Positions 5,652 through 36,657 of a DNA stretch of 64,000 nucleotides are shown piece by piece. How positions within the stretch are numbered: the stretch's first letter is position 1; each line of letters starts with the position of its first letter. The notes under the pieces are model-generated. The model made no database searches. It saw only the letters and a list, made by a program, of their open reading frames with translations, and was not told where the DNA came from. This stretch comes from an uncultured Hyphomonas sp. (GTDB taxonomy: Bacteria; Pseudomonadota; Alphaproteobacteria; Caulobacterales; Hyphomonadaceae), in the NCBI RefSeq assembly GCF_963678195.1, contig NZ_OY782759.1:2356001-2420000 (forward strand), read 5' to 3'. The position numbers and the translations under genes are program-made.

Positions 5652-6001
5652 GATGATCCAGGCTCTGGTCGAAACTTACAAACCGATAATTTCATTGGAA
5701 TCTTGAGGACAGTCCCGCCAACACCAAACAGGCTAACGCAATTTGCCCCCTCAGTTTGCCTGTAACTGGTCATTCCTGTTTCGCGTTTGACCAAATACCC
5801 GGCACAAAAGCGCCGCATATAAACCCACTGCGTTGGCAAGCTTCGCCCCTGCTCCGGGAGCAATTGCGCGTGAAACGATGTCAGCCGCTGCAGGGACAAG
5901 CAATTCGGGGACGAAGCCGCCTCTCTTTTGCTGCCCGCCTTGACCGCTACCCGGACCGACTCAATGGTTGCCTCAGGGAACGCATTTGCATTGAGGGAAT
6001 T
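5652..6001. other. Divergent promoter region, ANTAR / oxidase
   Basis: About 350 bp between divergent genes. The plus-strand frame remains open upstream of 6002, but that translation is low-complexity and Arg-rich and shows no domain, so I treat it as non-coding. A GAGGGA Shine-Dalgarno precedes the ATG at 6002. No clear operator was seen. Confidence 0.5.
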
Positions 6002-7147
6002 ATGAAACGTAGAGACTTTCTGGCGTCCGGCACCGGCCTGGGCCTGGCTGCCCTTGCTGGCTGCGCAACAAATACGGCCGGTTTTGCGCCGACACCTGCA
6101 ACAGGTGACGCGCTGGTACAGTCCATCGGGGCTCCGATGCGTCCCATCAAATCATCGATGAGCCGGGTGACCCGCACGATTGTCGGCCTGCGTCCGTTCC
6201 GAAAGCCTGGACCACGCCTGGAAACCGTCACAGTCGGGTCCAAACATGTCGTGCACAATTATGGGCATGGAGGTGGGGGTGTCTCTCTTTCCTGGGGCGT
6301 CGCCGAACTGGCGGCGAATCTGACGAAAGAGGCACGCAGCGACCGGGTTGCCGTGCTCGGATCGGGCGCAATCGGTTTGTCCACAGCCATCCTGCTGCAG
6401 CGCGCCGGAGCCGACGTAACGATCTACGCCAAGGACTTCCCGCCCTACACGACCTCAAACGTCGCAGGTGCAATGTGGCATCCGGTGACCCTGTTCGAGA
6501 ATGATCAGGTGTCGCAGGAAACTCTTGCTATGCTCGACCTCGCCTCTCGGATCGCTTTCAACCGGTTCATCAGGTTTGCCAATGACCCGAAATATGGCGT
6601 GTACTGGATCCGCCAATACTCGCTCAGCGACGGGCCCATGAGCACCCTTCGGCCCTATGTTGGCGGGGATGCACTATATCCGGGCCTTGTCCGCAATCAG
6701 CCTGGCGGCCCGTTCGGCTTTCCTTATTACGACGCCTATTACACGCTGATGATCGATCCGGACATTTATCTGCGCGCGCTGGTGAATGATTTTCTGGCCG
6801 CTGGCGGGCGTATGAAAGAAATGGCGTTCGAGACCGAAGGGGATCTCGAAAAGCTGACGGAGACGAGCATCGTCAATTGTATGGGGCTCGGCGCGGGTAA
6901 GGTCTTCGGGGACGAAAGCATCATTCCAGCACGCGGACAGCTGAGCTTCCTGCTGCCTCAGAATGACATTGACTATGGTTATGCCGGATCAGTGGATGAC
7001 TATGGCCTGCTTTATTCCTTTCCCAGGAAGACCGGAATTCTCCTTGGCGGATCTGTCGACAAGGGAGACTGGAGCCTCGAACCGCGTGCCGACGAAATCC
7101 GGCGAATGGTGGACGGCCATGCCTATCTCGCCTCCAAACTGACCTAA
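6002..7147 (+). CDS. Tat-exported D-amino-acid-oxidase-like flavoprotein, circularly permuted
   Basis: A 381-residue FAD-dependent amino-acid oxidase of the DAO family. The start at 6002 has GAGGGA before it and opens a signal (MKRRDFLASG, hydrophobic run, LAGC), so both Tat export and a lipobox are possible. The block that is C-terminal in canonical D-amino-acid oxidases, GLRPFR (62-67) and HNYGHGGGGVSLSWG (85-99), stands before the dinucleotide-binding motif VLGSGAIGLSTA (118-129). The rest follows in canonical order: NCMGLGA (292-298), RGQ (311-313), LLGGSVDKGDW (347-357), and the protein stops where a canonical enzyme would enter GLRP. R64 and Y338 match the substrate-carboxylate Arg and active-site Tyr of mammalian DAO, so activity is plausible. 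It ends in a strong terminator. Confidence 0.88.
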   Translation: MKRRDFLASGTGLGLAALAGCATNTAGFAPTPATGDALVQSIGAPMRPIKSSMSRVTRTIVGLRPFRKPGPRLETVTVGSKHVVHNYGHGGGGVSLSWGVAELAANLTKEARSDRVAVLGSGAIGLSTAILLQRAGADVTIYAKDFPPYTTSNVAGAMWHPVTLFENDQVSQETLAMLDLASRIAFNRFIRFANDPKYGVYWIRQYSLSDGPMSTLRPYVGGDALYPGLVRNQPGGPFGFPYYDAYYTLMIDPDIYLRALVNDFLAAGGRMKEMAFETEGDLEKLTETSIVNCMGLGAGKVFGDESIIPARGQLSFLLPQNDIDYGYAGSVDDYGLLYSFPRKTGILLGGSVDKGDWSLEPRADEIRRMVDGHAYLASKLT

Positions 7148-7176: not shown

Positions 7177-7214
7177 AAGGCCGGACCTTCCCTTGGAGGT
7201 CCGGCCTTTCTTTT
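7177..7214 (+). terminator. Rho-independent terminator after the oxidase
   Basis: A perfect 12-bp stem (AAGGCCGGACCT / AGGTCCGGCCTT) with an 8-nt loop is followed by TCTTTT, 30 bp after the oxidase stop codon. Confidence 0.92.
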
Positions 7215-11854: not shown

Positions 11855-12368
11855 TGTGGCTCCGTCTGTTGTTGCTTGCCGGGACAAATCCATAACCGTC
11901 CCATATGGCTTGCCAATAATATGTGGTGGGACATATCGCGCGCTTGTATCTGAATTATTGCGCATCGCGTCCCGCGACTGACGTTTCCTTCGCCCTGTTC
12001 CTGTTTCTATAATCATTCTAAATTTGGAAACAAGGGCGGCCCCGCCAATGTCTGCAGCCAATCCACAAGCTGCTGCATTTTCTGGATAAACTTGGTCCCA
12101 CAGCCTCTCTGATACGCATTATGAGAGTCGGTTTTCGTCGCCGGTAGAGCTGATCACGCCTCCGGTCCCACACAAGAATCAGAATGCCGCCTCACCCCAG
12201 ATTCCGGGCCGCATTCCCTCTCCCACAAACAGGCAAAACGACAGCTCCGCCCCATCAGTCGAAGCTGCCCGAATTTTGGTCCGTTTTTCGGAATGCTCCG
12301 ATTCGCCCCAGTTTTTTCTTTACGTTCCTCCCCGGTCACCTACGACCAAAGGAAAAATGGAGGGTAAT
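11855..12368. promoter_or_regulatory. Divergent promoter region, ahpC / amine oxidase
   Basis: About 510 bp between divergent transcription units with no convincing gene. Upstream of ahpC there are nested inverted repeats: GTCCCA (11898-11903) with TGGGAC (11927-11932), and ATATGT (11919-11924) with ACATAT (11931-11936), plus the palindrome CCATATGG (11901-11908). These may be operators, but I could not match them to an OxyR consensus. Confidence 0.4.
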
Positions 12369-13943
12369 ATGGAGGGAGCGACCCGCCGGTCTGCATTGGC
12401 GCTCATCGGCGCAACGGCTGGCAGCGCGGCATTATATGCCGCGATGAAGTCCATTCGGCACGTCCAGCCATCATCTTATAAAGGCCCCATCAAGCTCGAT
12501 GGAGATCCGAAGGGCGCGAAAGTCCTTATTCTTGGCGCCGGTCTCGCAGGCATGGTTGCGGCGTTGGAGTTACGATCCGCCGGTTACGACGTCGAGGTTC
12601 TGGAATACCGCGAGAAAGCTGGTGGCCGCTGCTGGTCGCTGAGGGGGGGCGACACATATACAGAAATGGGTGGCGCCACTCAGAAAGTCACCTTCGACGG
12701 AGACAATTATATCAATCCCGGCCCTTGGCGGATTCCATACGACCATCATGGCGTACTGGATTATTGCCAGCGCCTTGGTGTCCAGCTGGAACCCTTCATC
12801 CAGCAGAATCACAACGCCTATCTTCACAACAGCAACGCTTTCGGCGGCAAGCCGCAGCGCTTCAAACATATCGCCACAGACTATCGCGGCCAGACATCGG
12901 AGCTCCTGGCCAAGGCTGTTGACCAGAACCGCCTCGACGACGTGCTTACATCGGAAGATCGGGGAGCGCTGATCGAATCGCTCCGGGCAACCGGGGCGCT
13001 GGACGACACCAATTCCTACCTGTCGGGCGACCTGACCAGCCGATATCGCGGTTTTGGCAAACCACCCGGCGCGGGCTTCGATGGCGCGCCCTCTGCTTCC
13101 GACCCGATCAGTCTGTCCGAAATCCTGCAATCAGGCATGTGGGGTCGGTTGGCCGACGCCGACCTGCTGGATCACCAGATGCCGATGTTTCAGCCGGTCG
13201 GCGGCATGGACATGATCGCACAGGCATTTGCCCGGGAAGTTGGCGACCTGATCCGCTTCAACTCCAAAGTCGTTTCATTGCAGCAAGACGATGATGGCGT
13301 GAAGGTCACCTATGAAGACACCCGAACCGGCGGCACGCTGACAACTCAAGCGGACTGGTGTGTTTGTACCGTGCCATTCTCGATCCTTGGCCAGATGGAT
13401 CACAATCTGTCTCCGGAACTGACCGCGGCAGTGAACAACGTCTACTATCGCGGGTCCGCCAAATGGGGGCTCGAATTCAAACGCCGCTTCTGGGAGCAGG
13501 ATGAACATATCTATGGCGGGATCAGCTATACCGATCTTCCCATTGAAATGATTTCCTACCCATCGACGGGCTTCTTCACCAAGGGTCCGGCCGTTCTTCT
13601 GGGTGGGTATACCTGGGATGATGCGCAGGCATTTGAATTCAATGCCATGCAGCCTGAAGACCGGATCAAATGGGCGCTGGAATTCGGCTCCCACATCCAC
13701 CCGCAATATCTCGAAGAGTATAAGACCGGTGTCAGCGTCGTCTGGCATAAGGTGCCATGGGTGCTGGGCTGCTTCGGGATATGGAGGGACAAGGAAACGC
13801 ATTACGCGAATGCGGTGGAGATCGACAATCGCGTCGTCTGCGCGGGAGAACATGTCTCCTATCTCGGAGCCTGGATGGAAGGCGCGATTGAATCGTCCCT
13901 CGACGCGATAGGCCGGCTGCATGACAAGGTGATCAACGGATGA
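12369..13943 (+). CDS. Tat-exported flavin amine oxidase
   Basis: A 524-residue flavin-containing amine/L-amino-acid oxidase. The ATG at 12369 is chosen because GGAGG lies 5 nt upstream and the protein then begins with a Tat-like signal (ATRRSALALIGATAG). The FAD-binding motif GAGLAG is at 56-61, with GGRCWSLR at about 85-92, and the C-terminal FAD/substrate segment has CAGEHVSYLGAWMEGAIES. It overlaps the cytochrome c gene by 4 bp (ATGA), so electrons may pass to cytochrome c instead of O2. The product imine would be the natural substrate of the RidA protein two genes on. Substrate is unknown. Confidence 0.9.
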   Translation: MEGATRRSALALIGATAGSAALYAAMKSIRHVQPSSYKGPIKLDGDPKGAKVLILGAGLAGMVAALELRSAGYDVEVLEYREKAGGRCWSLRGGDTYTEMGGATQKVTFDGDNYINPGPWRIPYDHHGVLDYCQRLGVQLEPFIQQNHNAYLHNSNAFGGKPQRFKHIATDYRGQTSELLAKAVDQNRLDDVLTSEDRGALIESLRATGALDDTNSYLSGDLTSRYRGFGKPPGAGFDGAPSASDPISLSEILQSGMWGRLADADLLDHQMPMFQPVGGMDMIAQAFAREVGDLIRFNSKVVSLQQDDDGVKVTYEDTRTGGTLTTQADWCVCTVPFSILGQMDHNLSPELTAAVNNVYYRGSAKWGLEFKRRFWEQDEHIYGGISYTDLPIEMISYPSTGFFTKGPAVLLGGYTWDDAQAFEFNAMQPEDRIKWALEFGSHIHPQYLEEYKTGVSVVWHKVPWVLGCFGIWRDKETHYANAVEIDNRVVCAGEHVSYLGAWMEGAIESSLDAIGRLHDKVING

Positions 13944-14392
13944 AACACCTGACCCCTTCCCCCCGCATCATTGTGTCCGCTTTTGCATTTGTCGCCACAG
14001 CGCTCACCACGCACGCCGATGAAGGTATCCCTGAAGTCACGAGCTTCGAACCGACCCCGCTCGAAAGGAAGATATTCGATGGCCCCGGCGTCACCGTGAC
14101 GCGTGGTGAGGACATCTATTCAACCCTCTGCGCCGGCTGCCACATGCCACACGGTGAGGGCGCTGTTGGCGCGGGCATGTATCCGGCCCTCGCCGGAAAT
14201 GAGAAGCTTGAATATCCCGATTATGCTGTCTTTATTGTCCTGAACGGGTACAAAGCCATGCCATCCTTTGCTCATACGCTTTCCGATGAGCAGGTGGCCG
14301 CCGTTGTGAACTATTTGCAGTCTGGCCTCGGCGGGAATTCATACGAACCGGCCGCGACAGTCGAACAGGCTGAATTGAGCCGGCCACAATAA
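13940..14392 (+). CDS. Periplasmic monohaem cytochrome c
   Basis: A 150-residue class I cytochrome c with a signal peptide (about 1-26). The haem motif CAGCH is at 64-68 and the likely axial Met is M107 in YKAMPSF. It is translationally coupled to the amine oxidase and is followed after about 20 bp by the RidA lipoprotein gene. It is inferred to be the electron acceptor of the flavoenzyme, feeding the respiratory chain. Confidence 0.9.
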   Translation: MKHLTPSPRIIVSAFAFVATALTTHADEGIPEVTSFEPTPLERKIFDGPGVTVTRGEDIYSTLCAGCHMPHGEGAVGAGMYPALAGNEKLEYPDYAVFIVLNGYKAMPSFAHTLSDEQVAAVVNYLQSGLGGNSYEPAATVEQAELSRPQ

Positions 14393-14412
14393 TCTGAATA
14401 CGGAGTGATATC

Positions 14413-14907
14413 ATGCGTCTGACCGCCCCTCTTCTTTCCGCTACCGCAATTGCACTCGCCGCCTGCGGCGCAGCGGACAGTGAAGTGATCCGCCACAAGA
14501 TCCCCGGATCGGATTTCCCCATCCTTCAGGCTGTCGAAGTGCCTGCTGACGCAACGCTGGTTTACCTCAGCGGCGCAGGACCCTCCGTTTCCGACGAGAC
14601 GGCCGAGCCGCGAACCCCGGCAGCCTATGGCGACATTACCACCCAGACGGAATCCACGCTTGCGGCAATCGAGTCCCGCCTGGAAGGCATCGGGCTGACC
14701 ATGAGCGATGTGATCAAAATGCAGGTCTACATTGTGGCAGCTCCCGGTGAAGACTCGCTCGATTTCGGTGGATTCATGGAAGGTTATGTCAAATTCTTCG
14801 GCACGGAAGAACAGCCCAACCTTCCGACACGCTCTGTGTTCGAGGTTGCCGGCCTCGCTAATCCCGGCTGGCTGATCGAAATCGAAGTTGTGGCTGTCCG
14901 GGACTAG
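14413..14907 (+). CDS. RidA-family lipoprotein (imine/enamine deaminase)
   Basis: A 164-residue YjgF/YER057c/UK114 protein preceded by a lipoprotein signal with lipobox LAAC (C18). The catalytic Arg is R140 in LPTRSVFEVAG, and the family's GWLIEIEVVAV strand closes the protein. RidA proteins hydrolyse reactive 2-imino acids or imines to keto compounds and ammonia. Ordinary RidA is cytosolic; here it is predicted to sit in the envelope, beside the exported amine oxidase and cytochrome c. It is the third gene of that operon. Confidence 0.9.
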   Translation: MRLTAPLLSATAIALAACGAADSEVIRHKIPGSDFPILQAVEVPADATLVYLSGAGPSVSDETAEPRTPAAYGDITTQTESTLAAIESRLEGIGLTMSDVIKMQVYIVAAPGEDSLDFGGFMEGYVKFFGTEEQPNLPTRSVFEVAGLANPGWLIEIEVVAVRD

Positions 14908-24441: not shown

Positions 24442-26610
24442 TCAGTTCGGGGTAAGAGGCGTACGCCGCTCCAGATGGTCCTCAACCTGTTCCCGCTGAA
24501 GCCAGAGTTCGCGGAACGCTTTCTCCGACAACAATTCAAGCTGGTCGCTGTAGTGCGTCGTTCCCGACTGGCGCGAGTTGCCATAGCTCATCCGACCATA
24601 AGCTTTGATCGGCGTGGAAAACTCAATCAGTGCAACCCAGGTCTCACCATGGGCCGGCGTCCTGACGCCATCCTCGTTCGGTTCTGACCAGGTTATGACG
24701 TCAAATGATCCGAGATTGCCATACCCGCTATGCCCCGGAAGATCGACGTCTTCCAGGATGAAACGTGAGACATCCCCATAGACCGGATCTATTTTTCCGT
24801 ATTTTTCCCTGGTCGAGACGATGGCTTCCCGCAGAAGGTCGACAGCTCCTTCGGGATCTTTAAGACCAGTGGGTGTATTGATCGGATCTTCGGCACTCCA
24901 TGGAATGGCAAAGCCGTCCTGACCGCTCATACGGGGACCAGCGAACAGCTTCGCCCATGCCTCGAACAGGACACCGGCACGATTGTCGGATGAGAATGTC
25001 CGATCCCAGCCAGAGAGGATCTCGACCGCTTTCTGCATGTCGGGGCTTTCATCTTCGGAGGCGGCAACGAGCAGATCCGGCAAGACCCGGTCCGCCATCA
25101 GGGCTTCGGCGGATAGCTTCAGAGCAACAAATTCGTCAAATGAGATATCTTCGTTTTCCGTCATCATCTTCAGGGAATTCTGCGCTCTCATGGACAAAGG
25201 TATTCGAGGTGCGAAATAGGACGGATAGTCCTCTGGTTTATAGGGCACCGGAAGCGTCGCTTCCCAAGGCGGATCGTTGGAGTTCTGAATAAATCCGGAA
25301 TCCGGATCGGTGACACGCGGCAGGTCCTCAAAATCGTGGATCTCTGTCCACAGGTATTCCGACGTGTCGCCGGGTACCAGGCCTTTCCAGAAATCGATAT
25401 CCCCGGACGACCGCTTTGGCGCGATGCCATTGAAAATATACTCGATGTGCCCGTCCCGGTCGGCATAGGAAATATTGAAGGTCGGCACCTGAAGTCGGGA
25501 TATGGCTTCATGGAACTCATCGTAGCTCGCCGATGTCACCATATCGAAATACTGGTTCAACATGCCCGGCCGGTCGAGACCGGCGACGCGAAGCGCGACG
25601 AGCTTGCCATCCGGCCTCTCGAATACGGGGCCGTGGACAGTCGACCGGATCGTGACCGGAACATCCACATAGGTCCCATCGTCCTGAAGCAGCCTGTAGC
25701 TCGTCTCCTCCACATCGAAGGGCCGTACTTCGCCATCAAAAAGATAGCCATTGTCCTCAAGTGTCAGCTCATAGGTCGTGGCACCAACCATGCCATTGAC
25801 GGTGTTGGAAATTCCCATTTGCCGATTGAACGCGAAACGAATGACCGGCAATCCGACCTGCGTCGCACCATAGACTTCAAAATCCGGACCGACGAGGTGT
25901 GCCTCATAGTAAATGAAGAACGGCATGCTCCACGGAAGGTGTGGATTCTGGAGCAGCATTGAATGGCCACTTGCGGTTTTGGATGGCGCCACGGCCCAGG
26001 TGTTCGAGCCCTGTTTTTCGAGCTCCGGCGGATCCCCTTCGCCGATCGTGCGATTGGGAGACGCAACGTATACGAAATTCATCAGACGGTGGGCGTGCGC
26101 AACAACGTCTACGCCCGTGATGGGAAGAACCATTTGTACATCTTCGTCGATCGCTTCCGGATAAGCCTCTGCATAGGCGTTCATGCCGGCGGCAAATGCA
26201 TCCAAATTCCTCCGGAAATCAGGCGTCTGGGCCTCATACCATTCCTGGGCCCGGTCCGGCACGCCGTTCATGATCAGCCATTTCGTTGTGTCTTCATAGG
26301 CTACGCCCCAATACTCAGCGCCCTTGCCCCGCGCCTCTCCATAGAGCCGGAAAATCGTGTTGGCGTGACTGTTCGCCTGGGCATAGCCATAGCCATAGAA
26401 AACCGTTTCGGCGTCAGCGCCGTAAATGTGCGGCACCCCATACGTATCCCAGAGTATTTCCCCACCGGTGGCCGGTGCCTCAGCAGCAATTCCCGCCTGT
26501 CCCACGTCTTCGGCCACAACATCTACCGCGGGAGACCTCCCGGCGCACGCGACGAGGAATGCACCACTGCAGGCTGCAATCGCACCCGTGAGTAAGTGTC
26601 TGAGTTTCAT
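24442..26610 (-). CDS. Penicillin-acylase-family Ntn hydrolase, lipoprotein
   Basis: A 722-residue Ntn hydrolase of the penicillin amidase/PvdQ/QuiP superfamily. The protein has a lipoprotein signal (lipobox LVAC, C22), an alpha-chain starting [13 protein letters not shown], a linker, and the beta-chain N-terminal nucleophile S202 in QGSNTW, exposed by self-cleavage. Family enzymes remove acyl groups from beta-lactams, acyl-homoserine lactones, lipopeptides or siderophore precursors. It follows the STN-type TonB receptor by 71 bp on the same strand, so it is probably induced with it through the FecI/FecR pair and acts on the imported ligand. The ATG at 26610 opens the signal; the frame extends further upstream without similarity. 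Confidence 0.92.
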
Positions 26611-26681
26611 AATACTGGTCCTTTTGTAATGCCTGATATTTGACGATGCTGCCGATCCGATCAAATGCTGCTGTAAAATAC

Positions 26682-29540
26682 TCACCAATTATATGTTCCG
26701 CGAACAAACCATGTGCCGCCGGTGAACCCGAATGGTGCAAATGTGTTATACATGTTCGCGCCATTGTCCGGCGTCGGCTCGCTGATACGGTCCGGATAGG
26801 TGTTGAACGCATTATTGGCCCCGGCATAAATCGTGAAACAATCCGACAAGGCATAACCGAGTTCAAAATTCGCAATCCACTCCGGGCTCACATCGAAGTC
26901 TTTTTCAGGCTTGGCTGCGTTGCGAACGGTATAACCACCGAATCGGGTCGCGCGGACCTTCGTCCTGAAGCGCTCAATGTCCCAGCCAAGGCTCAGGATG
27001 ATTTTCGAGTCCGGAATTGTGTCCGTCAGAGCGCCTCGTTTGCCACGATTGAATATCTCGATCTCTCCCAGCGCCTCAAGCTCAGCTGGATTGTCCATGA
27101 TGTGGCGGATATCCGTCTCGTTCTTGTTGTAGCCCCCGATAAAGCTGAAGTCGCCGTAACCGGTTACCCGCCGATACGTCACAACAATATCAACGCCGCG
27201 GGTCCGGGTATCTATGGCGTTGGTATAATACTGCCCGCTGATGTCCGGTGAGATGCCATTCTCGGTCAGCAATCTCTTCACTTGCTCTCCAATCGTGGTC
27301 TCACCGTCTGCGGAAAGACGAGGGTCAATAGGCGAAAAAGTCGATGTCACCGCGATCCGGTCGTCCAAGTCGATCTGGTAGACGTCGGCCGTGATCGACA
27401 GATCACGCAACGGTTCCAGCGTTACACCAACACTCAGGTTTCTGGACGTTTCTGGCTGTAGTGGCGATGCGCCGAGTGCCTTCGCAGCAGCAGAGTCGAC
27501 CGGCAGGTTTTTGAGAAGCAACAGCTCAGCGTCTCCGTCGCCATCCAGGTCACGGAACTGGCTGGTCGTGGAAGAATAGGTCTGCTGCGCCAGGGTCGGA
27601 GCCCGGAAGCCTGTATTGTATGAGGCTCTTAGTGCGGCCCGGTCACTGAGTTCATACCGGCCGTTCAGCTTGTAGATCAGTTGATCGCCCGCTTCGTTGT
27701 CGAACTGTTCATATCGAAGTGCAGCATCGAGATAGATTTTGCGCGTTGGGCTCCAGCCAAGTTCGCCATAAGCACTGAGATTGGTTCGCTGGCTCTTTCC
27801 AGCATCGTCGGGCCGGAAGCCGGGCGTCGCCTGCGCCCCCGGCGTAAGGAGTTCTCCTGCGAAGGGTTGGCCTTCGGGACGAACATAATCACCGGCGATC
27901 CAGCTGGCTTCGTCACCCTCCCGAACTTCATATGTTTCCAGTCTGTGCTGGAGCCCAAATGAAACCTGCCAGATACCGCTGTGTTCGAATGTATATCGCC
28001 TTGTCAGATCGAGCGAGTTTACCCATTCAGAAGAAATCAGCCGTCCGATCTCAAACGAAGTCGGGCTGTCCGGTCCGAGACTGGCGTTCAGGCCATTTTT
28101 GTTTTCCCAGTCGCTGTTGTCGGAACCAAAGTTCGAAGAGATATCCCAGTTCCAGCCATCGGCCGTCTCACCGCGCACGCCAGCCGCCAGCTCGAAATCG
28201 TTCTCCTCGATTATCAGCCGCGGCCGGAAGCCGTCAGGATAGACTTCCGGCAACGTCACGTCGCGTGTCGGCGCACGAAAGGACCAATTCAGAACCGACT
28301 TCCGGAAACTATATGTTCCAAAGCTATAGAATTCCGCATCCGCAAGCTCCTGAACCAGGTTTGCACCCAGAATATGCGACATCTGCGGAAACGCCCCATA
28401 ATTCTGTGAGACCATCCGGTCTATGGTTGCCTCCCTCGGATCACGCGCGCGGCCTTCGAGCAAGGGATAGAGGTTTATGCGATCGGAAATCGGCACAGCC
28501 CGGTTGGACTCTTCCCGGTCCATATAATTGTAAAACAGATTCAGTCTGCCGGTCTGCCCGACTGGCATACCCCGGCTGGCAGACAGGTTGACGTACTCAC
28601 CGTCATTTCGGTCGAAGTTCTGCCCTGTACTGATAGATATGTCCCCGCCCTCAGCGGCATCTTTCAGAATCACATTGATGACACCGGCGATCGCGTCCGA
28701 TCCGTACTGTGCCGCTGCGCCATCGCGAAGAACTTCAATCCGTTCAATTGCCGACATCGGAAACATGTTGATGTCGACCCCGGCGGCCCCGTTGTAAAGC
28801 GAGGACACCGAGTTGATCAGTGCTGTTTTATGCCGCCTTTTTCCATTCACCAAAATCAGGGTATGGTCCGGACTGAGCCCTCTTATGCCACCTGATGCGA
28901 TAGCGGCCGCTGTGCCGCCGCCGCTTCGGGCTGGCAGGTTGAAGGACGGAACCAGATAACGGATCGACTCGAATATGCCGACAGGGCCTCCAGCTTTGAG
29001 ATCCTCCGCCCCGAACACATCAACCGGCACAGGACTGTTGACAAGTGTTCTGGAGATGCCTCGCGCACCGGTCACAATAACCGTACCCTGAACACTTTCG
29101 AGGTCTTCCGTCTCTGTAATTTCAATACTCGGGAACAATGGCGACCGCGGATGTTTCGGCGTTCTGATCTGCGGTGGTGCCTCGGGCGGCGCAGTCGTCT
29201 TATCAATGAGCCGTGGCTGCAGAGTCAGAGCACCATTCTCCAGCCGCTCGACGCCCAGTCCCGTCCCTTTGAGTAACATCTTAAGAGCCGCATCCCCCCC
29301 GAGCCGTCCCTCGACCGCATGTGAGGTCTTTCCCTCCAACATGTCCGCAGGAACAACGAGAACTACCTTCGATTGCTCAGAATACTGCATGAGTGCGCGA
29401 GCAAGCGGTTGCGCGTCTATCCGGTAGTATGCGGCCCCATTTGCATCAGAGTCTGCAAGCGCCGACAGGAATTGCATCATAGCAACGGATGCCACACCAG
29501 CCAGGCCAGCTCTGTTGAGCGGTCTTCTGACGTCCGACAT
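26682..29540 (-). CDS. FecA-type TonB receptor with STN signalling domain
   Basis: A 952-residue receptor: leader, N-terminal STN domain (about 38-108, [21 protein letters not shown]... to GALTLQP), plug ([56 protein letters not shown]) and a barrel with a C-terminal aromatic residue. The STN domain in the periplasm normally contacts a FecR anti-sigma factor, and a FecR and FecI pair lie directly upstream on the same strand. The receptor should therefore report ligand binding to its own sigma factor. The plug is close to that of the receptor at 1989-4634. Ligand unknown; the following acylase gene suggests an acylated compound. Confidence 0.93.
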
Positions 29541-34719: not shown

Positions 34720-36657
34720 TCACCACCCCACCGCCATCGCCATGCGGCGCGGGTCCGCTCCCGCCATGACAGCACCATTGTTATAAGCTCTGACGCCCTG
34801 AACGGCTCCAATCGCATACGGCCCGACAAAATTCACAGCATGCCCCAAAGCTTGTAGTCCGAGCAGACTCTGTTGCGAAAACCTCGACTCCAGTTGAAGC
34901 AGGCATTTCGCTCCGGGGAGATAAAAATTGGGATCGGCTTTGACGGCAAAGCGGGGCGCTTCAATCGCCTCCTGAATCCCCATCCCGTAGTCGATCAAGC
35001 TCATCAGAACCTGAAACTCACTTTGGCCGATCGTCTCGCCGCCGGGCGTCCCGAACGCTGCCCAGAGCTTCGAATTATTCATCACGACCACGGGTGAGTT
35101 ATTCAGGATGGGAATTTGTCCCGGCGCGACGAAATTGACGTTGTCCCGATAGGGTGAAGTGGAGCCCAGCCGCATTCCATTATTCAGAAGGAAGCCAGTA
35201 TCACCGACCACAACGCCCGCGCCGAAACCTCCACCCAGCGTCGTCGTTACAACGATTGTGTTTCCGTCCGCATCGACCACAGTCAGACTGGTCGTATCAC
35301 TGAATCGCGCGTCGTCGTCTTCCGTACGCACAAGGGAGTCTGGCGGAGGCGGCGCAGACGGATCATATATCCGAAAATCAGACACGGCCGGGAATGTCGC
35401 GGCCTGCGCTATATCGATCAGGGCAGCCCGGTCAGCAGCATAGGCTTTGGACAACATTGCACCGAGCGGGATGTCTGCATGCTTGGGATCAGCTGCATAA
35501 GCATAAATATCAGCTTTGGCATGCTTAATCGCTTCGGCCTGCAAGTGCAGCAGCAGCGGGCTTCCAGGTTCAATAGCAGACACATCGAATCTCTCAATGA
35601 TGTTTGCCTGCATGCAGACTTCCAGTCCTCCTCGGGATGTAGGCGGGGTCGAATACACTTCGTATCCGCGATAGGTCGTTTGAACCGGATCAGTCCATTT
35701 AGCTTTATAGGCCGTAAGGTCGGCTTGTCTGAGCCAACCTCCCTCTTTCCGAAAGAAACGGTCTAGCTCCGCAGCGATCGGGCCATTGTAAAAATACTCG
35801 CGCGCCGCCAGCAGAGCTTTATCGCGGTCTCCACCGCTCACCAGCACTTTCTGTTCTTCTGCGACCAACGCTTCAAATGTCTTCGCCAAATTCACGTTTG
35901 TCATAATCTGGCGGGGTTTTGGAACCTCCCCATCCGGCAGGAACACTGCCGCGGTTGTTGGATGCAGAGCCAATCGCTCCTGCATGTACGCGATGACACG
36001 CGCGATGGAGGGATCAACTGGGTGTCCGTTTCGCGCGAGATCGATGGCTGGCGCAAAAACGTCTGCCAGTGACAGTCGCCCATGCTTGCGCATGAGTTCG
36101 ATCCAGCCATCGAAAGCACCAGGCGTTGTCCCTGCTTTGGCGCCCCAATCGTACGCTTTCGGGTCGCTGTCCGGATCCAGTGCAAATGGGGCTGCCCCTC
36201 CAAACATAAGGGCTTTTACTCTGCCGGTTGGCTTATCATACACGGTCGCGAAGCCATTTCCCCCAATGCTGGAAGCCCAGGGCTCGACCAGGTTAAGAAC
36301 GGCCATTGTCGCAACAGCAGCATCACCAGATGCGCCTCCTTGCATGAACATCCGCAAGCCGGCAGATGCAGCGAGCGGGTGGCCGGCACTGACAACGCCA
36401 TTCGGCCCGGGTGTTTCGACGCGATGCGTTGAGACATCCAGATCGCCACTTTCCGGCGCATCCGGCGGCCTTATCTTTTCAGACGCGAGCGGGGAAGAGG
36501 GCTGACTCGAAGCTCCGGCAGGCGTGGCACACGCTGAGGCCAAGCTGCTCGCCACAAACGCGCTGCCCGCCAGGAAGTGACGACGATCCAGGCCCGTATT
36601 TGTCACCTCCGGCGTATCACTGGATTCTTCTTTCTGATCTTTGACGATTCCTGTCAT
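34720..36657 (-). CDS. Tat-exported gamma-glutamyltransferase
   Basis: A 645-residue member of the gamma-glutamyltranspeptidase family, which is cut into two chains by self-cleavage. The catalytic Thr is T455 in FSDTTSLTVVD; the usual His after the Thr pair is Ser here. GGGFGAG follows at about 475. The N-terminus has a Tat motif (DRRHFLAG at 24-31, then a hydrophobic stretch to a Cys at 43), so it acts in the periplasm on glutathione-like or gamma-glutamyl compounds. It lies between a TonB receptor and a TolB-propeller amidohydrolase on the same strand, which suggests uptake and stepwise breakdown of a peptide. Confidence 0.9.
   Translation of the reverse strand: MTGIVKDQKEESSDTPEVTNTGLDRRHFLAGSAFVASSLASACATPAGASSQPSSPLASEKIRPPDAPESGDLDVSTHRVETPGPNGVVSAGHPLAASAGLRMFMQGGASGDAAVATMAVLNLVEPWASSIGGNGFATVYDKPTGRVKALMFGGAAPFALDPDSDPKAYDWGAKAGTTPGAFDGWIELMRKHGRLSLADVFAPAIDLARNGHPVDPSIARVIAYMQERLALHPTTAAVFLPDGEVPKPRQIMTNVNLAKTFEALVAEEQKVLVSGGDRDKALLAAREYFYNGPIAAELDRFFRKEGGWLRQADLTAYKAKWTDPVQTTYRGYEVYSTPPTSRGGLEVCMQANIIERFDVSAIEPGSPLLLHLQAEAIKHAKADIYAYAADPKHADIPLGAMLSKAYAADRAALIDIAQAATFPAVSDFRIYDPSAPPPPDSLVRTEDDDARFSDTTSLTVVDADGNTIVVTTTLGGGFGAGVVVGDTGFLLNNGMRLGSTSPYRDNVNFVAPGQIPILNNSPVVVMNNSKLWAAFGTPGGETIGQSEFQVLMSLIDYGMGIQEAIEAPRFAVKADPNFYLPGAKCLLQLESRFSQQSLLGLQALGHAVNFVGPYAIGAVQGVRAYNNGAVMAGADPRRMAMAVGW

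Follow-up and report, generated by a model that had tools for sequence, protein, structure and literature searches.

D-Amino-acid oxidase (DAAO), an enzyme of the human kidney among others, is a well-known textbook example of a flavoenzyme and is used in medicine and industry. Human DAAO (2du8) and human D-aspartate oxidase (DASPO; 6rkf), members of the Pfam DAO family (PF01266), have in common with the protein described here the FAD motif, Arg283, the equivalent of Tyr228, the YGHG and LGG..GDW motifs and the fold of the FAD part, whereas in the present protein the two parts of the chain are swapped and a Tat lipoprotein signal is predicted. All five solved relatives in the PDB alignments listed have the canonical order. 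Canonical bacterial DAAO-like proteins, 27 of them from the phylum of Olivibacter and three from actinomycete plasmids, share these motifs and also keep the canonical order. According to PMC9844085, GxRPxR and YGHGGxG are named motifs of DAAO-like proteins that have been reported in some glycine oxidases too, and few bacterial DAAO genes have been recognised. In naturally circularly permuted proteins, the subject of the topic page PMC3320104, the order of the parts is swapped and the old ends are joined, as they are here. No flavin amino-acid oxidase appeared among the titles listed for permuted proteins, and no description of a permuted DAAO was found in the open-access literature searched, a scope outside which most subscription journals fall; none is given in the available parts of PMC13359353, PMC5169069, PMC9844085 and PMC12502724. 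A table in PMC12502724 does include a 'D-amino acid oxidase' (A0A060QKK3) detected outside the cells of Asaia bogorensis.

The protein is encoded in a window of 64,000 nucleotides (the whole stretch of DNA that was analysed) from an uncultured Hyphomonas sp. with a genome of 3.67 Mb. The gene occupies positions 6002–7147 of the plus strand, with the ATG at 6002 and the stop codon at 7145–7147, and translation gives 381 residues, in agreement with the first-pass annotation; the position of the initiating Met is shared by homologues. By inspection of the sequence, GAGGG at 5993–5997, ending 4 bases upstream of the ATG, is a likely ribosome-binding site, and GGCCGGACCT...AGGTCCGGCC followed by TTTCTTTT at 7179–7214 is a likely intrinsic terminator, both on the plus strand. 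The nearest relatives by protein sequence are in records of Hyphomonas, an alphaproteobacterium (97% and 94% identical), and no second match to the oxidase was found within its own genome at E 0.001.

Order of the two segments and their joint

Residues 52–111 (6155–6334) correspond to the C-terminal segment of the canonical oxidases and comprise the GxRPxR strand (GLRPFR, residues 62–67), the HNYGHGG motif and a helix; the stretch HNYGHGGGGVSLSWG occupies residues 85–99. They precede the canonical N-terminal segment, residues 115–380 (6344–7141), which contains the FAD fold with VLGSGAIG at 118–125 and, within it, the GxGxxG motif at 120–125 after the first strand, then the substrate part, GQL, LGGSVDKGDW at 348–357 and the last helix (363–379 in the model), so that 24 residues remain from LGGSVDKGDW to the chain end. 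The joint of the former termini is placed by profile match and spacing at residues 112–114 (6335–6343), and residues 22–51 (6065–6154) form a linker or extension outside the canonical profile match.

A sequence search of the PDB returned 17 D-amino-acid or D-aspartate oxidase sequences, led by human DASPO and D-amino-acid oxidases and each matching in two stretches, and both pieces stand in swapped order in all five of the alignments listed. With human DASPO (6rkf_A), for example, residues 114–370 align to residues 13–264 of the chain and residues 58–111 to residues 281–337. A profile of length 322 was built from 30 canonical bacterial relatives; residues 52–111 match its positions 262–320 with 60.1 bits and residues 115–380 its positions 3–261 with 141.9 bits, the two pieces abutting and covering nearly the whole profile. 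All rotations of residues 35–381 were scored, and a single domain reached its maximum of 210.2 bits with the start at residue 113 or 114, as compared with 142.3 bits without rotation; two canonical proteins treated in the same way, each left out of the profile, had their maximum at the natural start or no more than a few residues away from it. When the mature sequence was shuffled 200 times, a match of any kind arose in 64 cases, with a top score of −0.7 bits, and for this reason the two-piece match is not attributed to chance. The swapped order and its reading as a circular permutation, both proposed in the first-pass annotation, are borne out by the agreement of the PDB and profile matches, by the tiling of the profile and by the direct joining of the old ends.

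The relatives that were classified comprise 77 permuted loci (63 distinct frames and 54 rows under 90% identical, with some genes represented by two loci) and 30 canonical loci, 29 of them assigned by script and one (L073) by hand. The spacing from YGHG to GxGxxG is 33 residues in 43 of the 54 permuted proteins (range 32–40). This is close to the canonical tail plus the canonical head, which measure 22–32 residues from YGHG to the chain end in 28 of 29 proteins (53 in the other) and 4–15 residues between the last Met and GxGxxG in 27 of 29, those for which a value was obtained, and it follows that the old ends were joined nearly without a linker. The break lies between profile positions 261 and 262, after the helix that follows LGG..GDW and just before the GxRP strand, where the first-pass annotation had put it; in human DAAO numbering it falls between about residues 250 and 274 by the PDB alignment. 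The spacings from the GG[ST]-type motif place the new break there as well, a few residues before GxRP: in canonical proteins the distance to GxRP is 42 residues in 22 of 29 (the others 41 and 60–63, with one stray at 285), and in permuted proteins the distance to the chain end is 32–40 residues in 32 of the 40 that gave a value (strays of 3 in two and 44–59 in six). The second HNYGHGG block at the C-terminus for which the first-pass annotation had proposed to look was not found, and none of the 77 permuted and 30 canonical loci has both blocks; each has a single YGH[GAS], which in all 77 permuted loci stands before the FAD motif.

Such an arrangement could be imitated by an error of assembly, by sequences fused by chance or by a gene that is broken and lies beside a motif-bearing stretch, and single members of the family can indeed break, as in the frameshifted Mesorhizobium locus L105. 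The same part order is nevertheless shared by the 77 loci overall, including all 12 loci from other genomes in one scan, down to 36% identity, for which reason it is not an assembly error; the joint spacing is near-constant, and the permuted proteins form one deep branch. The artefact, fusion and double-block ideas are ruled out by the homologues, and the probability that we would leave to an artefact is negligible.

Both parts are homologous to one single-chain relative, stand in swapped order and are present once each. Homology to the DAO family is not in doubt (Pfam DAO, 1.6e-33, 117.1 bits against a cut-off of 27.9, best over residues 115–370), and as the canonical order is absent the protein is filed as part of a permuted branch and not as an ordinary member. 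Judged from the sequence, there is hardly any doubt about the permutation. The strand-helix segment with GxRP...HNYGHGG, once C-terminal, would have moved ahead of the FAD-binding strand in an ancestor, the old termini being joined almost without a linker and the new ends opening where the helix that follows LGG..GDW had led on to the GxRP strand; the chain would still fold as one DAAO-like unit, with FAD at GxGxxG and the carboxylate of the substrate at Arg64.

The structure was predicted by AlphaFold with 13 aligned sequences, and one of the five models was good, with a pLDDT of 81.1 and a pTM of 0.82 over the whole chain (pLDDT 69.2, 67.5, 64.2 and 61.2 in the other four). In this model the moved segment forms strands 63–67, 72–78 and 81–87 and helix 97–109, running into strand 115–119, which with helix 123–134 belongs to the FAD part. 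Block values of pLDDT are 92 and 91 around the joint (residues 101–110 and 111–120, respectively) and 32, 59 and 89 in the linker (residues 21–30, 31–40 and 41–50). In a Foldseek search of the PDB, DAAO and DASPO entries take up ranks 1–33 (269–301 columns, TMq 0.55–0.60); four of these rows, from entries 4qfd and 4qfc, have titles lacking the enzyme name. Foldseek aligns sequentially and its table carries no aligned ranges, and it is the confidence of the model that suggests that the moved segment takes the same place in three dimensions as in the canonical fold. A second prediction, for the Olivibacter protein, was poor (pLDDT 53.7, pTM 0.54). The DAAO-like fold is supported by the one good model, and the results as a whole support the view that the protein belongs to the D-amino-acid oxidase family and is a natural circular permutant.

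Occurrence and ancestry of the permuted branch

Permuted members were found in three phyla, among Alpha- and Gammaproteobacteria, Bacteroidota and one actinomycete. The window protein was matched in 20 of 398 Pseudomonadota genomes at E 1e-20, in 50 of 120 near-relative genomes at E 1e-10, in 15 of 385 genomes of its own class at E 1e-8 (the range of the query that each match covers marks all 15 as permuted), in 1 of 321 genomes of the class of Parahaliea (Gammaproteobacteria) at E 1e-8, this being the centre genome itself, and in 43 of 395 genomes of the phylum of Olivibacter (Bacteroidota) at E 1e-6; these samples overlap in part and were drawn with a permuted query, among the matches listed, so their frequencies are not natural ones. 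Three of the 30 loci fetched from the phylum of Olivibacter are permuted (L059, L060 and L076) and 27 are canonical. Among plasmid records 61 matched and nine were fetched: five loci are permuted (Niveispirillum, Nonomuraea, Rhizobium, Bradyrhizobium and Kozakia), three, all actinomycete, are canonical, and the permuted but frameshifted Mesorhizobium locus L105 was left out of the counts. Sequence searches split the permuted proteins into two matches, and where permuted plasmid genes are annotated, as three of them are, the name is only 'FAD-dependent oxidoreductase'.

The Mesorhizobium locus lies on plasmid pOM4 of Mesorhizobium onobrychidis (L105:2235–3298), where the oxidase is frameshifted inside the FAD motif and annotated as two genes. 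These two adjacent FAD-oxidoreductase genes were considered as a fission intermediate, an idea that was rejected, the interruption being a frameshift inside the FAD motif and not a split at the segment border.

A tree of 84 rows was calculated with the permuted proteins first put in canonical order. One branch separates the 54 permuted from the 30 canonical proteins (98/93, and 99% of 200 bootstrap trees), and a quick tree that included human DAAO and DASPO keeps this split (SH-aLRT 94), with both human enzymes on the canonical side. A single permutation event would be the simplest reading. Repeated permutation at this site, in at least two independent events, would fit the diversity of the permuted proteins, the weak deepest fork within the permuted side (48/58) and the very long branch (3.34) that carries L076 and L103, in a sample drawn with a permuted query; the single, well-supported branch in both trees speaks against them, and we consider such repeated events improbable. 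L076 and L103 are a very divergent permuted pair, in which RPM replaces RPF/RPY and NYGHGGSGWTLGPGS replaces the usual NYGHGG...SLSWG.

Predicted export signal and active site

Residues 1–20 (6002–6061) form a Tat-like signal, MKRRDFLASGTGLGLAALAG, with twin Arg at positions 3 and 4 and a hydrophobic stretch, and are followed by Cys 21 (6062–6064), the lipobox cysteine of LAGC and a predicted lipid anchor. Both Arg residues are invariant, and the Cys is nearly so, in 13 aligned proteins. The set of motifs expected of a Tat lipoprotein (twin Arg, hydrophobic stretch and lipobox Cys) is present in the window protein, and TatC is encoded in its genome; the Pfam TAT_signal model scores 9.3 bits, below its cut-off of 22.7, which counts against export. 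By a pattern of our own making, used in place of SignalP, a Tat-like motif with a hydrophobic stretch is present in 47 and a lipobox in 39 of the 54 permuted proteins, whereas the motif occurs in none of the 29 canonical proteins examined. The seven permuted proteins without it are L029 and L102, which have interrupted or cut frames, L103, with a hydrophobic start that lacks the twin Arg, and L031, L090, L091 and L092, which look cytoplasmic from their sequences and come from a five-row branch whose named members are rhizobial or actinomycete; the fifth row of this branch, L032, has a Tat-like motif.

The permutation and the export signal therefore tend to go together, not strictly, with the rhizobial/actinomycete branch mostly lacking a signal. 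The suggestion that the new N-terminus frees that end for an export signal holds for most of the permuted proteins and is not universal. Nor is permutation required for export, as the window also encodes a flavin amine oxidase (PF01593; 12276–13943, plus strand), an FAD enzyme of another family that is not permuted and has its FAD motif near the N-terminus together with a Tat-like start. Because most members carry the Tat-like signal and the lipobox, the enzyme probably leaves the cytoplasm folded and loaded with FAD and is anchored by lipid in the envelope, and for the window protein we hold export with lipid anchoring to be likely.

The active-site Arg and Tyr, which the first-pass annotation had recognised as R64 and Y338, align with Arg283 and Tyr228 of human DAAO. 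Arg 64 (6191–6193) is the residue that we take to bind the carboxylate of the substrate, as its human equivalent does; Arg is conserved here throughout, in all 54 permuted and all 30 canonical rows. In the column of Tyr 338 (7013–7015), 34 of the 54 permuted rows and 29 of the 30 canonical rows have Tyr, and part of the loss on the permuted side may be due to misalignment. The role of Arg283 in binding the substrate carboxylate, and the fact that Tyr at position 228 is not conserved across all DAAOs, are given in PMC9844085. His307 is kept in 53 of the 54 permuted rows and Tyr309 to Gly313 in all 54, which, with Arg283, makes a carboxylate-bearing substrate likely.

Leu215 of human DAAO corresponds to Tyr 327, where human DASPO has Arg216, which binds the side-chain carboxylate. 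The window protein lacks this Arg, which weakens D-aspartate specificity of the human type and makes it unlikely. Met 158 and His 160 stand where human DAAO has Leu51 and Gln53. No NCBIfam model reached its own cut-off among the 25 matches listed of 90, the glycine oxidase ThiO model TIGR02352 scoring 49.8 bits against a required 250.8. These differences in the pocket, the 20 of 54 permuted rows without Tyr in the Tyr228 column, the NCBIfam result and the diversity of the flanking genes scanned (see below) would suit a permuted enzyme of the envelope that acts on another carboxylated amine, such as glycine, sarcosine, an opine or a D-residue of a peptide. Set against this are the conserved carboxylate Arg and YGHGG block and the fact that the best solved relatives, by sequence and by fold, are DAAO and DASPO; we regard a different substrate as possible and somewhat doubtful. 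Of the name D-amino-acid oxidase, the family assignment stands, and the activity itself is suggested by fold and active-site residues, from which the oxidation of D-amino acids appears to be the better bet. Taken together, a permuted enzyme of the DAAO family that folds as one unit, is exported and lipid-anchored and oxidises D-amino acids or close relatives is our best explanation, and a probable one.

Gene surroundings and implications

The genes around the oxidase encode, in order, a Tat-like aminotransferase, a TonB receptor, an ANTAR protein, the oxidase, an isochorismatase-like protein and AhpF and AhpC, with the flavin amine oxidase, a cytochrome c and a RidA-family protein further along the window. 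The class I/II aminotransferase (PF00155; 281–1450, minus strand) has a Tat-like start, SRRFLLAGATGLG, and is apparently a PLP enzyme sent out of the cytoplasm; it also lies near the oxidase in L002–L005 and L012. The gene of the flavin amine oxidase is overlapped by a cytochrome c gene (PF13442), and with the RidA-family protein (PF01042), which has a lipoprotein-like start, these make up a set at 12276–14907 (plus strand) that looks like an extracytoplasmic system for amine or amino-acid oxidation with its own imine hydrolase. A penicillin-amidase-family protein (24442–26688, minus strand) and a gamma-glutamyltranspeptidase with a Tat-like, lipobox-like start (34720–36657, minus strand) have TonB receptors nearby. 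Enzymes fit for extracytoplasmic amino-acid use lie close to the oxidase, and we note this without drawing a functional conclusion.

Eleven other genes of the window were compared with about 6 kb on each side of the oxidase in L002–L013. Neighbours of the oxidase are common to L002–L004 and L012, with fewer in L005, and none of the 11 was found within this distance in L006–L011 and L013. Ten flanking genes scanned in L006, L008, L010, L011, L013 and L089 were varied. Beyond the near relatives there is no conserved neighbourhood that ties the oxidase to D-amino acids, which counts against that substrate. On the Rhizobium, Bradyrhizobium and Mesorhizobium plasmids the permuted gene precedes a gene for a thiamine-pyrophosphate enzyme.

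By default the electron acceptor would be O2, as in DAAO. AhpC and AhpF remove peroxide; their genes lie near the oxidase in the window and in the near relatives L002–L005 and L012, and would suit an oxidase, weakly. The enzyme might instead act as a dehydrogenase, with a periplasmic cytochrome c or the respiratory chain receiving the electrons, and two arrangements point that way: on the Kozakia baliensis plasmid pKB14400_3 (L093:4887–6547), a gene annotated as cytochrome c, with a haem motif, starts 5 bases after the permuted gene, and the other Tat-like flavin enzyme of the window has its overlapping cytochrome c gene. A CxxCH frame was nevertheless found near the permuted gene at only 4 of 54 loci (up to 1.5 kb per side, mostly less), that of Kozakia alone being convincing, and a dehydrogenase seems unlikely to us. 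The permuted Kozakia gene sits among hydrolases and a TonB receptor.

If the enzyme is an oxidase of the envelope, it would yield imino acids from D-amino acids or close relatives of these, for which peptidoglycan and detritus are examples of a source. A fuller picture, in which an ancient permuted branch in three phyla gained a Tat signal and lipid anchor on its new N-terminus and became an envelope-tethered DAAO, sometimes coupled to cytochrome c, is possible and rather more tentative. A natural permutant found across phyla indicates that the chain of this fold can be opened at a defined place, and it offers a natural template for enzyme engineering. Permuted oxidases of this kind may explain how D-amino acids are attacked outside the cytoplasm by some bacteria; if this is true, an envelope-tethered oxidase would give Gram-negative bacteria extracytoplasmic use of the D-amino acids that peptidoglycan and detritus contain.
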